NCBI RefSeq assembly: GCF_003697845.1
Contig: NZ_RDQE01000005.1
Span: 192,521 to 256,520, forward strand
Source of the DNA: Halobellus captivus
GTDB taxonomy: Archaea; Halobacteriota; Halobacteria; Halobacteriales; Haloferacaceae
Direction of reading: 5' to 3'
DNA: 64,000 bases
The notes beneath the pieces were generated by a model, which searched no databases, was not told where the DNA came from, and was given only the letters and a program-made list of their open reading frames with translations. This document shows, one piece after another, positions 24,901-52,971 of this stretch (position 1 is the stretch's first letter; each line of letters starts with the position of its first letter). The translations under genes were made by a program, and so were the position numbers.

Positions 24901-26161
24901 ATTCGTGGTCGTCCCACTTGAGGCATACAGGCCGTGCCATCGACCGTGTTACCGTCGTCTGCCGTTGACGAGACACTCCGTGTCTCGTTCGCCGATCAGA
25001 ACTCGGAGAGTTCTGATGACGTCTCAAGAACGTCTCCGACGCTGTAAGATCAGCGTGTCCCTCGAATCCACACGGACACGTCAGTGTGTCACGGTGGCGT
25101 GTCGTGTCCTCCGTCGAACCGCAGTTCGGACACTCTTGACTCGTCCACGCCTCGGATCGAACCTCGACCGACATACCGTATTCCTCAGCAGTACATGCCA
25201 GTCGATTCACGAACGCTCTAAACGCCCAAAAATTGTGCGTCTTCGCGTTCGTCTCCACCGACCAGTGTGTATCGAGTACGTCAGTTAACGCCCCGATGTA
25301 CACCGTCGAAACGCCCTCAGCATACAAGCGTTCGATGAGGTCACGGGCGAGTGCATCTTGGGCGTGGTCACGTCGCTTCGTGCGTCGGTCGTACAGGCGT
25401 CGGATACGGTGACTACTGTATCGACCTTCCTCCAAGAGCGATTGGAGTCGGGCGATTTCTCGCGTGGTTTCGCGGAATCTGTCGAACAGGTCGCGTCCTT
25501 CGTACAGGTATTGCTGGCCGGTCGTTGTTGTGCAGGCAACGAGATTGTTCGCACCAATATCCAGAGCGGCTTCTTCCGAAGCCAGTGGGTGTGCCAGTCG
25601 AGAAGTGTTGATAGTAACTGGCTGAAAAGCCCTGAATTTCTGTGCTTGCTCGTCGTAGAACAACTCTAATCGGCCCTGCTTGTCGTACTCGTTCCAGTTG
25701 GGGTCGCCTCGAACTTCGAGCCGGAGGCGTTCGCGGTGTCCCAATCCGTACTCGTCTTTCAAGTCTTTGCCGACCAGAATTTCGAGGCGGGAGTATTCAC
25801 CCCACTCAACGGAGTACGACGTGTTGCGGATGTACGTGCGGAGTTCTCTCCCGTCTTCCGAGTTGCCCCAGAAGCCGGGTTTTCCGTTGGCTTCGCCTTT
25901 CTTTTTGAGGCTGAAGAACGACTTCCACGCTTCGCGGTTCTTGCGTTCGATTTGCTGAACCGTGGACGCGCCGAGAACACCGCCATAGCGACCACGATAC
26001 TCGCTGATCTCCCATACGTCTCGGTTTGGGTCAGCATAGTTCTCGCGGCGCTCGTAGTTGATTTCGTTCCAGAGAGCGGCGGAAGCGTCCAACAGGCGTC
26101 GAAGCAACTCCTCGTCATCATCGAACTGAGGAACTACCTCGAACGTGTTGGCTCGCTTCAT
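24830..26161 (-). CDS. tnpB: IS1341-type TnpB, RuvC-II acidic residue missing
   Basis: RNA-guided nuclease family protein, 443 residues. Seen: an N-terminal helical part ([20 protein letters not shown]), RuvC-I Asp201 in [15 protein letters not shown], a zinc ribbon CPNCG / CPCG (Cys344, 347, 362, 364), and RuvC-III Asp371 in [11 protein letters not shown]. At the RuvC-II strand canonical TnpB has (I/V)EDL. Here it reads [10 protein letters not shown] (Ala291), so no acidic residue is at that spot. The start is ATG at 26161; a TTG one codon earlier is ignored. A shared AT-rich promoter lies at 26186-26196. Otherwise full length and undisrupted. Confidence 0.93.
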
Positions 26162-26185
26162 CAACTGCTGTTTGTACCGTAACGC

Positions 26186-26196
26186 ACATAATTATT
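26186..26196. promoter_or_regulatory. Shared AT-rich promoter element of tnpB and the divergent small gene
   Basis: ACATAATTATT is centred ~27 nt from both the tnpB ATG (26161) and the small-gene ATG (26215). One near-symmetric box could serve both leaderless transcripts. Confidence 0.5.
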
Positions 26197-26214
26197 CCGT
26201 TCATGTGATACTGT

Positions 26215-26352
26215 ATGGTCGCAATTCGCATAGAGTTTGACGACGACGAACAGTACGAACGGCTGAAGGAACTGAAGAAGCACCGTGGATTGACGTGGAA
26301 GGGCTTACTCCTCGAAGGGGAGAAGAAAGTCAGAGAGGATACCCCGGAGTAA
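26215..26352 (+). CDS. Small ribbon-helix-helix-like protein of the IS element
   Basis: 45 residues. VAIRIEFDDDEQYERLKELK is followed by RGLTWKGLLLEGEKKVRE. A basic beta-strand followed by two helices resembles CopG/RHH or VapB-type antitoxin folds. It lies divergent from tnpB inside the element, where haloarchaeal IS1341-type elements often carry such a gene (recalled). It could repress the shared promoter; that is inference. Confidence 0.65.
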   Translation: MVAIRIEFDDDEQYERLKELKKHRGLTWKGLLLEGEKKVREDTPE

Positions 26353-26508
26353 GCGTCGAACGTGGGTTGTAACGTGGAGTGTCGGATTCACGTCCGCCCT
26401 GAAGGGCGGGACTCTCTCCTTGATTCAGGTAGGGAGCGCGGAGTCCCCCGCCGACCGAGCCGTTCCTCGAACGTTTATCCTCGAGGCGGGAGAACCGGCT
26501 CCCGTCCC

Positions 26509-49336: not shown

Positions 49337-49372
49337 TCATCTCGGCAACCTAGATCTCGAGAATGGTGACGC

Positions 49373-49785
49373 TCACTCGTCGTCTTCGACGTCGAACGGG
49401 GTATCGATTCGGTCCCGGTCGCCGCGACCGCGTCCCCGTCACTAACGATGAACGTTACCGTATCGTAGTGCTCCTGAGAGCCCCGGCACCGGGACCACGA
49501 GGACGCCGCCGCCGAAGCCGACGACTGCTCCGACTCGTTAACCCCTTGGACTCGGTAGGGCTGCCCGTCGTATTCGATGGGGCCACTCATCTCGAGATCG
49601 GGTTTCCCGGCCGTGTTACCGTCAGTGCCTCCGGTTGGGAGCCTCCTCCAGTGGTATCCCGAGTCCGCGACGATGACGAGTCGCCCGTACTCGCGAACAC
49701 CGGCGGTGAGAAGGATCCCCGTCATCGTGGCGGAGCGTTCGGGTGACCTCCCGCAGACGTGTCTTCCGACGCCGATCCTCGTCAT
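49373..49785 (-). pseudogene. Hypothetical gene, probably frameshifted near its 3' end
   Basis: One frame opens at the ATG at 49785 and stays open, with high third-position GC, to about 49400 (LTAGVREYGRLVIVADSGYH; SGPIEYDGQPYRVQGVNESE; YDTVTFIVSDGDAVAATGTE). It then would run antisense into rio2 to 49222. A one-base shift near 49405 gives a natural acidic ending IDTPFDVEDDE with a stop at 49373-49375. No family recognised. A TATA-like ATATATTC lies ~27 nt upstream inside a palindrome. It follows the RdfA-like gene on the same strand. Confidence 0.45.
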
Positions 49786-49798
49786 AATGCCCTAATTG

Positions 49799-49822
49799 AT
49801 ACTTCATGAATATATGAAGTAT
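49799..49822 (-). promoter_or_regulatory. Perfect 9-bp palindrome over a promoter, candidate operator
   Basis: ATACTTCAT (49799-49807) / ATGAAGTAT (49814-49822), 6-nt spacer GAATAT. Covers the TATA position of the minus-strand gene starting at 49785. In an AT-rich gap after the RdfA-like gene. Confidence 0.65.
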
Positions 49823-49852
49823 ACGATTTCACTCATAGTAAGTATAATTATA

Positions 49853-50470
49853 TTATTCGTACTCGGATGAAGTCGTGCATCCACACCCACCCTGCCGGAG
49901 CAACTCGCCGATCGAGTGGTTCGACCCACACTTCGAGCAGATGGCTCGAACGTCCACGAGAACGTCGTAGTCCGCGTGGTCGTGTTCGCCCGCCGAAACC
50001 AGTGACTCGATCGTCGACTCCGTAACGACGGCAACCCGTCCCTGGAGTTTCTCGATCGTTTCGGTCTTTCGTTCGACCACGTCGCCGTCCCGCTCGGGGA
50101 GGCTCGCTTCACGGTCCTTCCGCAGGTAGGTGTGTACCGCCTGGTGTGTCACGAAATCGTTCGAGAGCGTCTCCACGTCCACGCCCTCGCGTTCGAGACG
50201 ACGTCGAGCGCGCGTTCGCTCGGAGCTCGATCCCTCCCGAAGGCTCTCGTACGTTCCCGTGATATCGACCTCGTGCGGCGAGACGTCGGCCTCCCGAAGC
50301 GTTACTTCGAGGAGCCGTTCGTTGAACTCGTCGGCGAGATCTCGGAGGCTCGTTCGTTCCCCCGTCTCGCCCGTCCACGCCGCCTCGAGTTGCGCGCCCG
50401 TCCCGGACAGGTCGTACTCGTCGATGAGCCGTGCGACCTTCGTTCCGCGGCTTCGCGTCCCGTTGCTCAT
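49853..50470 (-). CDS. RdfA-like (rod-determining factor family) protein
   Basis: 205 residues. Recognised from TKVARLIDEYDLSGTGAQLE, ERTSLRDLADEFNERLLEVT, RARRRLEREGVDVETLSNDF, VTHQAVHTYLRK, and a C-terminal zinc knuckle CSKCGSNHSIGELLRQGGCG followed by C. In Haloferax a member of this family (RdfA) affects rod versus disk shape; many haloarchaea have several paralogues, often beside an SMC-like ATPase as here. This copy's role is unknown. An ACTTTGTAAC box precedes the ATG at 50470. Confidence 0.83.
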   Translation of the reverse strand: MSNGTRSRGTKVARLIDEYDLSGTGAQLEAAWTGETGERTSLRDLADEFNERLLEVTLREADVSPHEVDITGTYESLREGSSSERTRARRRLEREGVDVETLSNDFVTHQAVHTYLRKDREASLPERDGDVVERKTETIEKLQGRVAVVTESTIESLVSAGEHDHADYDVLVDVRAICSKCGSNHSIGELLRQGGCGCTTSSEYE

Positions 50471-50571
50471 ACCCCTCCTATCCGAGCAAGCGTTACAAAG
50501 TTACTGATGTCACGTCGATGTCCATCGATGCCGACCGACGAGAGATGGCACGGTCGAACGATCGCCCGACG

Positions 50572-52512
50572 CTAATCGATGCTCCTCACGTACGTGTACT
50601 CCTCCGAGAGTGCCTCGGCGTCCTCGGGCAGCAGGGCCGCGACGAGGTACTCCGCGTGGGTTCTGAAGTAGTCGACGACGCGTCCGATCCGGTCCGAATC
50701 GATCGCTTCGAGCGAATCGAGAACGACGAACGGAACGACCTCGTGGACGTCGTGGACGAGGTAGCCGGCGAGCGCGAAGACGAGTCCGGTCACCTCGCGT
50801 TCGCTCTCCGAGAGGTGGTCGATGGTGTCCTCGTACGCGGACCCGTCCGCGGCCGACCGGACGATGTGTAACTCGAACCGCGTCCTCGTCACCTTCCGGC
50901 GTCCCTCGCGCACCTCCTCCCGACGGCGTTCGATCCAGATCCGATCGAGGTTGTCGTACTCCAGGATGTCCAGGACGGTCTCCATGTGCTCGTTGAACGC
51001 GGTCACCGCGTCCTTCTCGATGCGCTCGACGCGGGTTCGGAGGTCCGCGAGCCGTTCGGTGAGCTCCTCGCGTTCGGCCTCGAGTTCTTCGCGGCCCTCG
51101 AGCGCTTCCTCGCGCTCGGCGACCTCCTCGTCGATCGTCTCGAGGTCCCCTTCGATCCGTTCCACCCGCAACTCGAGTTCGTTGGACTCCCGGTGGAGTT
51201 CGAGCACTTCGTCGTGGTCCTGTACCTCGATCGTCTCGGTCTCGGCTTCGAGGTCCGCTATCTCGTCACGTTTCGTCTCGATCCGGCCCTCGAGATCCGA
51301 GATGCGTTCGGTCGTCGTCTCGATCTCCGCCTCGACGTCGGCGAGTCGGTTCTCCGCCCGTTCGGCTTTCCGTCGCTCGGTACGGAGTTCGGACCGTCGC
51401 TCGGTGAGCTCGGCGATGTCGGATTCGATACCGCTGCGCTCCTCGAGTTTCTCCGCGCGGAGGTCACGCAGCTGTTCGACGGTCCCCTCGATCTGTTCGG
51501 TCGCGACGGTCGACCCACAGGTCCAACAGGTCGTCTGGTCGCTTCCGGTCAGCGCGTCGGTCGGGTCCGTCTCCTCCCCGGTGTCGTCCCGATCGAGATC
51601 AAGCTCCTCCTCCTCGAGCATCTCCTCGTTGAAGCTCACGACGCTCGCGAGCTGGTTGATCGTCCCGTCGAGCGCGCGCTTGCGCTCTCGAAGCTCCTGA
51701 ACTCGCCCCGCGAGTCGGTCCGGGTCCTCCTCGGGCGGCTCCGCGTCGGCGAGCCGCTCCTCGAGTTCGTCGTACTCCGACTCGAGTTCGGAGAGCGTCG
51801 ACCGCTCGGTTTCGAGGTCGAACTCGAGGTCGTCCAGTTCCGACCGGGCGTCCCGGACGCGTTGGAACGCCTCCTCGAGCTCCCGTTTTTGCGAACGACT
51901 CCGTTCGACGTCCGTCTCGAGGTCCTCGAGTTCGGACTGAACGGTCGCCAACTCCTCGCGAGCCTCCTCGAGTTCCGCACGTTTTTCACGGCGTTTCTCC
52001 TCGAGTTCGGGCAGTTCGTCCTCGAGCCGTTCGAGCCGTTCGATCTCGTCGTCGAGCTCCTCGCGCTCCCGTTTACACGACTCGATCTCGGCTTCGATGC
52101 GGTCCGTATCGATGGGCCGCATGATGATCTCGCGGAGGTCGTCGCCGCGGGCGACGGTGCGTCGCGCCTCGTTGTTCTCGAGCAGGAAGGCGAACAGGTC
52201 GGCGAGTTCGGGGTCATCGAGGTACGGGTCGCCGTCGAACGCGACCGTGTCCCCGTGTCGGGTCAGCGTCCGCGTGTAGGTCTCCCCGTCGATCTCGAGG
52301 GTGACCGACCCTTCCTCGGCGTCGCCCTTGAGCGAGGCCCTCTCGCTGCCGAGTCCCGCCATGAGCGCCGCCAGAAACGACGTCCGATTCGTCGCGTTTC
52401 GTCCGGTCAGTACCGAGACGCCGGGCGGAAGGGTCACCTCGGCCTCGTCGATCCCGCCGATCTTTCGAACGTCGATCCGCACCCGTGATTCAGAGAGTTG
52501 CTCCGCCGACAT
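50572..52512 (-). CDS. Archaea-specific SMC/Rad50-related ATPase with zinc hook
   Basis: 646 residues from the ATG at 52512. ABC head: the P-loop region reads SVLTGRNATNRTSFLAALMA (no canonical GK[ST]). The ABC signature-like HLSESEREVTGLVFALAGY and Walker B VPFVVLDSLEAID are near the C-terminus. Between them are two long coiled-coil arms (IEAEIESCKREREELDDEIE; EIADLEAETETIEVQDHDEV) joined by a CxxC hook (TTCWTCGSTVA). Overall like Rad50/SMC but about two thirds the length. Paired with the RdfA-like gene just downstream. A TATATTTAATG box ~30 nt upstream sets the start. Confidence 0.88.
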   Translation of the reverse strand: MSAEQLSESRVRIDVRKIGGIDEAEVTLPPGVSVLTGRNATNRTSFLAALMAGLGSERASLKGDAEEGSVTLEIDGETYTRTLTRHGDTVAFDGDPYLDDPELADLFAFLLENNEARRTVARGDDLREIIMRPIDTDRIEAEIESCKREREELDDEIERLERLEDELPELEEKRREKRAELEEAREELATVQSELEDLETDVERSRSQKRELEEAFQRVRDARSELDDLEFDLETERSTLSELESEYDELEERLADAEPPEEDPDRLAGRVQELRERKRALDGTINQLASVVSFNEEMLEEEELDLDRDDTGEETDPTDALTGSDQTTCWTCGSTVATEQIEGTVEQLRDLRAEKLEERSGIESDIAELTERRSELRTERRKAERAENRLADVEAEIETTTERISDLEGRIETKRDEIADLEAETETIEVQDHDEVLELHRESNELELRVERIEGDLETIDEEVAEREEALEGREELEAEREELTERLADLRTRVERIEKDAVTAFNEHMETVLDILEYDNLDRIWIERRREEVREGRRKVTRTRFELHIVRSAADGSAYEDTIDHLSESEREVTGLVFALAGYLVHDVHEVVPFVVLDSLEAIDSDRIGRVVDYFRTHAEYLVAALLPEDAEALSEEYTYVRSID

Positions 52513-52971
52513 ACCTCCCCCCAGGAGACGCTGGTCATTAAATATACGCATGACGGTCGTCGGTCGAGGGAGATCTCCGTCAGCCATGTCGATCCTCCGA
52601 TCCGTTCGAACGCTTCGAATCACCTGTCCAAACGTCCCGGATTCCCCTTCGAATGAAGTGACAATATTCAAATATTACTAGAACATGACTGGTATTTTAT
52701 TTATTAAGTATAAATTTACATATATTTCGATTCGGCGAACTCGTCACCGTTCTTTGGCCGACAGTATCTCCATCGTCGTTATACTCCGAGACGGAATCTC
52801 CGGTCATCGGCGCGAAGACGTTCGTCAGAGCACTGTTAATACTGGGACGATCTGTACACCCGGCTATGTCGGTTGAATACCCCTCATGTTACAATCCCTA
52901 TACTCTCCAGCATGACTTCGTCGACGCGGTCGCGTCGTAACGCCTACCACCCGCGACCGCGAGGGTCCGGT
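52513..52971. other. AT-rich intergenic region upstream of the SMC-like gene
   Basis: 459 nt. The ~52660-52735 part is strikingly AT-rich (TATTTTATTTATTAAG; AAATTTACATATATTTCG). A shorter AT-rich patch lies on the other side of the cassette (49790-49870). The short plus-strand frame 52685-52876 is not protein-like. No tRNA, integrase or direct repeat was seen. Confidence 0.6.

Follow-up and report, generated by a model that had tools for sequence, protein, structure and literature searches.

Among the few archaeal cell-shape switches that have been proven genetically is the RdfA–Sph pair, and we know of no mechanism for it. In Haloferax volcanii, HVO_2174 (RdfA) adjoins HVO_2175 (Sph3), and deletion of either gene leaves disk-only, non-motile cells (PMC10869688). 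According to the same report, direct adjacency in 24 genomes holds for 42 of the 54 RdfA genes and for 42 of the 50 SMC-like genes, and HVO_2174 is the only RdfA for which a requirement for rod formation is shown there. The four sph genes of H. volcanii have also been examined in a gene-conversion assay, in which each deletion lowers survival; the shape phenotype of Δsph2 is the opposite one, and joint deletion of sph2 and sph4 was not possible (PMC11276520). The Sph proteins belong with the archaea-specific SMC-related proteins (ASRPs), a name given in PMC9389158, where a zinc hook is described as common to them.

Here we describe an RdfA–ASRP pair in a 64,000-nucleotide stretch of Halobellus captivus DNA, hereafter the window. 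An earlier note on this DNA held that the reason why RdfA relatives travel with such an ATPase is not established. This is only half true, since the adjacency and the shape function are published in PMC10869688, and because the pairing is already described there, the central novelty of the note was already known. The points that we consider worth following are a conserved loss of two catalytic residues in the ATPase and a pair-specific co-divergence of the two proteins.

Results

Organization of the locus

The coordinates of the locus are collected in Table 1. As the earlier note had it, RdfA lies directly 3′ of a coiled-coil ATPase of the ABC/SMC type, the two genes being separated by 101 bp with RdfA downstream. 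The mechanically longest ORF for the ATPase starts with a TTG at 52671, but because relatives align to it only from about residue 54, the ATG at 52512 is the likelier start. The position of the TATA-like box relative to this ATG suggests that the transcript may be leaderless, and a similar ATTTAAT is found 5′ of the ASRP gene in a related genome (G019). Two more complete ASRP–RdfA pairs are present in the same genome, one on contig C35 and one, divergently arranged, elsewhere on contig C33.

Table 1. Features of the RdfA–ASRP locus in window coordinates.
Feature	Position	Strand	Remarks
ASRP/Sph gene	50572..52512	(-)	646 aa from likely ATG; profile match, model and relatives' alignment
RdfA gene (rod-determining factor A)	49853..50470	(-)	205 aa; PF21811, E 2.5e-67
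TATA-like box TATATTTAAT	52537..52546	(-)	~28 nt 5′ of ASRP ATG; read directly from sequence
Degenerate Walker A GRNATNRTS	52378..52404	(-)	residues 37-45; Arg for P-loop Lys
Zinc hook CWTC	51517..51528	(-)	residues 329-332; invariant among 23 relatives
ABC signature LSESE	50800..50814	(-)	residues 567-571
Walker B FVVLDS	50713..50730	(-)	residues 595-600; Ser for catalytic Glu
Perfect palindrome	49800..49821	.	31 bp past RdfA stop; single copy in genome
Frame-shifted MacB_PCD/FtsX-type ABC permease fragment	49414..49644	(-)	tblastn and Pfam
Whole insert relative to sister-species empty site	49338..52932	.	~3.6 kb; blastn breakpoints

A small third gene under the control of the palindrome had also been proposed for the region past RdfA. 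This candidate was rejected as debris: part of its ORF is the permease fragment (47.5% over 80 aa against a 428-aa protein that this genome also encodes, tblastn E 4.5e-12) and the rest is antisense to RIO2. The palindrome exceeds chance expectation and was not seen 3′ of RdfA in the nearest relative. Two AT-rich patches had been taken to bracket the genes. G+C is indeed lowered across the insert region (0.51-0.66, versus about 0.70 in the surroundings), but the patches do not mark the ends of the insert, the one at 52.66-52.74 kb lying upstream of the pair and the one at 49.79-49.87 kb over the 3′ end of RdfA. Another dip in G+C (0.55-0.57 versus about 0.70) is found at positions 25000-26500 of the window.

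An RdfA-family protein and an archaea-specific SMC-related protein

The identification of the downstream product as an RdfA-family protein stands: it matches PF21811 over its full length (226.9 bits against a cut-off of 27, profile positions 1-195 of 195), and its zinc-ribbon-like C-terminal Cys quartet (C178, C181, C196 and C198, encoded at 49877-49939) is invariant in all 37 aligned sequences. The structural model (pLDDT 88.4) has a helical domain, a long helix at 131-159 and a zinc-ribbon-like C-terminal end. Structure searches returned no PDB match to the fold at E ≤ 0.001, the best Z being 4.0; short matches of only 42-43 residues were to chains containing a helix-turn-helix (sigma region 4, Noc), and Pfam helix-turn-helix matches were non-significant. 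Helices 99-119 carry FVTHQAVHTYL (FVSHQAVHTYL in relatives), which, together with these short and non-significant matches, suggests as a lead that a helix-turn-helix may lie in this segment.

The upstream protein passes the profile NF045487 (archaea-specific SMC-related protein) with 679 bits against a cut-off of 300 (E 5.4e-204), and scores far too low for any Rad50 or SMC family in the profile search. Its AlphaFold2 model (pLDDT 82.7) matches Rad50/SMC heads, the best match being Rad50 with ATPgammaS (E 4.9e-17). The first description of it as a Rad50-like ATPase was right about the long coiled coil, the CxxC hook, the ABC signature and Walker B, and not about the family, which is ASRP/Sph. 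Rad50 identity was rejected on a family score of 59 bits against a cut-off of 700 and on the absence of GK[ST] and DE. What the protein shares with Rad50/SbcC is the CxxC hook, an ABC signature and the head fold; it differs from them, beyond the two missing motifs, in reading LSESE for LSGGE, in its shorter coils and in having no Mre11 neighbor.

The altered ATPase site is shared by a clade

The protein keeps Walker A and Walker B motifs with the catalytic residues altered (GRNATNRTS and LDS). The P-loop without GK[ST], correctly singled out in the earlier note, turned out to be a trait of a whole clade and not a peculiarity of this copy. Canonical Walker residues form no part of the NF045487 cut-off. 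Among 99 aligned ASRPs, 90 are of the type that we call Sph2-4, a clade label which, like Sph1-type, is our own and follows the split reported in PMC11276520 and PMC9389158, our tree having been built without H. volcanii Sph sequences. In 89 of these 90, the P-loop Lys is replaced by Arg and the Walker B Glu by Ser ([N/H/G]R[ST] with D-S); the exception has Lys and Ala, and another such member (NK/DA, locus L266) lies outside the tally. Sph1-type ASRPs retain GKSS, with Gly or Arg in place of the Glu. The non-haloarchaeal ASRPs have GK[ST] in 6 of 6 cases and DE in 3 of 6, the others reading DN or DD. In the tree, the altered-site proteins form a single clade (support 97) with two scattered reversions to Lys, and the window ASRP is split from the Sph1-type (GKSS) clade and placed as Sph2-4-type without a choice among Sph2, Sph3 and Sph4. 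The genome's own Rad50 carries the canonical motifs (GSGKSS, LSGGE, LDEP).

The residues around the altered motifs are almost invariant and LSESE and CWTC are retained, from which it follows that the altered ATPase site is itself conserved. P-loops with a Lys-to-Arg change can retain some activity. Judging from the substituted residues, hydrolysis is probably impaired in Sph2-4-type ASRPs, the window copy included. The available part of the ASRP account (PMC9389158) reports Walker A and B as present and leaves the Lys and Glu substitutions of the Sph2-4 clade undiscussed. No statement of the double loss was found in the ASRP/Sph literature, which was available in part and did not include older Sph work (e.g. 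Herrmann and Soppa 2002), and the novelty of this conserved double loss is uncertain. We also considered whether the P-loop change is tied to pairing with RdfA, and rejected this, given that RdfA partners are likewise found for GKSS-type Sph1 proteins and for a GKTS protein of Methanohalobium.

The pair is an accessory insertion

In a close relative (G026, RIO2 96% identical), the RIO2 and CBS genes lie 56 bp apart. Homology of the window to this empty site ends at 49337 and restarts at 52933 (blastn), so about 3.6 kb has been inserted between RIO2 and CBS. The proposal of a transferred cassette is thereby upheld in the sense of transferred or accessory DNA, and the locus is not the syntenic core DNA of all relatives that would have spoken against it: it is absent from the sister site, and copies with differing flanks lie elsewhere. 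The nearest copy, in G019, is 85% (ASRP) and 82% (RdfA) identical, versus 95% for RIO2, and sits among sugar and hydrolase genes, while the G026 copy is near SufS-like and SRP54-like genes, all these neighbors being named from sequence only. About one third of the genus is without ASRP. On haloarchaeal megaplasmids, ASRP-like matches were found in 132 and RdfA matches in 121 plasmid records. Inspection of repeats at the insert borders recognized no target-site duplication, inverted ends or recombinase. Carriage by a virus or provirus was rejected, phage records and viral contigs containing no match to the pair.

The RIO2–CBS junction is itself variable (window 49338-52932, L086 and L088). It is empty in G026 and filled by the RdfA–ASRP insert in the window, and in G011 and G019 the interval holds an unrelated amino-acid permease/Usp-type gene. 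Decay of the module was observed in G015 (L207:3715-7057), where the ASRP gene of a pair is broken by a DDE transposase gene; what had looked like an in-frame insertion in this ASRP is the interrupting transposase. A lone ASRP C-terminal fragment (L208:4359-4563, G000:C8), 84% identical to the window copy at the DNA level, is a remnant of a further pair.

RdfA and ASRP co-occur and co-diverge

Across 39 genomes of the genus, both families are present in 26, RdfA only in 3, ASRP only in none and neither in 10 (Fisher p 4.5e-7), and RdfA lies less than 1 kb from ASRP for 29 of the 41 ASRPs in the survey. The pairing, which the earlier note proposed to score, is enriched far above chance. Layouts within the genus are co-directional (in both orders), convergent and divergent, and several of the other ASRPs surveyed are split from RdfA by insertions or contig ends. 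In a mirror-tree comparison of 43 pairs from 19 genomes, the correlation between the distance matrices of ASRP and RdfA is r = 0.955, versus r ≤ 0.754 in 5000 trials of swapping partners, the swaps being confined to each genome so that species history is preserved. With NR-type pairs alone, r is 0.962 and the best swap gives 0.935. Because the observed correlation lies beyond every within-genome swap, each RdfA travels with its own ASRP. Block co-transfer and physical contact explain this co-divergence equally well.

The pair also occurs outside the haloarchaea. On plasmid NC_014254 of the methanogen Methanohalobium evestigatum (L198:3476-6641), ASRP, RdfA and a winged-helix gene (HTH_45) stand in a row, and RefSeq already labels the first two. 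The pair is adjacent and co-directional, ASRP then RdfA; its ASRP, unlike that of the window, has GKTS and DE and branches outside the haloarchaeal clade (a placement subject to a long-branch caveat), and its RdfA is very divergent (E 1.3e-8). Since this pair has the canonical GK and DE, pairing is independent of the degenerate site. Other non-haloarchaeal ASRPs, on the M. evestigatum chromosome (L199) and in genomes G084 (L200), G042 (L201) and G098 (L202), recur in a gene cluster together with a small AAA ATPase (PF00004) and unknown proteins. In L199, L201 and L202 the AAA ATPase carries a motif like RGADIAKEWHYSIN. This cluster contrasts with PMC9389158, which reports no flanking consensus for ASRPs.

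Discussion

With moderate confidence, we favor the view that the locus is a cognate two-gene RdfA–Sph (ASRP) module, inserted as accessory DNA where the core genes RIO2 and CBS meet, whose Sph, probably impaired in hydrolysis, would act on cell shape and the nucleoid. Sph would dimerize via the zinc hook, and its heads may retain nucleotide binding and closure, with hydrolysis poor or nil, so that the protein would serve as a long-lived clamp or scaffold and not as a cycling motor. RdfA, a helical protein with a possible HTH-like segment, a long helix and a zinc-ribbon-like end, would be the dedicated adaptor that tethers or loads Sph. The output would be a shift in nucleoid state and in cell shape, in the direction of rods should the pair behave as Sph3–RdfA does. 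With both residues that drive hydrolysis lost, Sph is more readily seen as a static clamp or scaffold than as a loop-extruding motor. More tentatively, and with rather less conviction, we propose for the Sph2-4 clade as a whole that it might be a lineage of the SMC superfamily fixed in a hydrolysis-dead state, its members being ATP-locked or ATP-independent clamps or scaffolds, each loaded or tethered by its cognate RdfA, with several insulated pairs per cell.

The gene-conversion defects of all four sph deletions and the failure to delete sph2 and sph4 together (PMC11276520), as well as the Rad50/SMC-like zinc hook and head, would also fit a DNA-maintenance device acting in repair, gene conversion or equalization of genome copies, with the shape change downstream. 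We think this unlikely as the primary role: the catalytic residues are lost, the genes adjoining the window pair include no nuclease partner, and the absence of ASRP from one third of the genus means that it is no general housekeeping repair factor. Still less probable is a plasmid or island maintenance or partition device that spreads by stabilizing its carrier. The abundance of the pair on megaplasmids, its non-syntenic chromosomal positions and the several parallel pairs per cell are consistent with such a device, as is, weakly, the possible DNA binding of RdfA; against it stand the published deletion phenotypes, which concern shape and motility, the lack of any evident ParA-like gene or centromere-like repeats next to the pair, and the core genes that flank the window copy. 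A defense-like role of the Lamassu/Wadjet type, also raised in the earlier note, found no support and is highly improbable, as the LmuB/JetC matches of ASRP (LmuB E 9e-17) are weak and, like its structural matches to these two proteins, fall largely on the coiled coil, RdfA is without a PADLOC match, the neighbors examined are ordinary metabolic and core genes without the nuclease or effector of those systems, and the pair is not on viral contigs or phages.

We return to the reading of a shape and nucleoid module, and to its place among the described systems. The module is accessory, moves horizontally and keeps specific partners. Like the ASRPs described in PMC9389158 (Sph, coalescin ClsN), the window protein has a zinc hook, a coiled coil and a split head. 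The RdfA–Sph3 pair of H. volcanii consists of the same two families in adjacency; in contrast to it, the window pair has no adjoining DdfA gene and is an accessory insertion at a different locus. The linkage itself is already known, and the window pair adds an accessory member to a known module.
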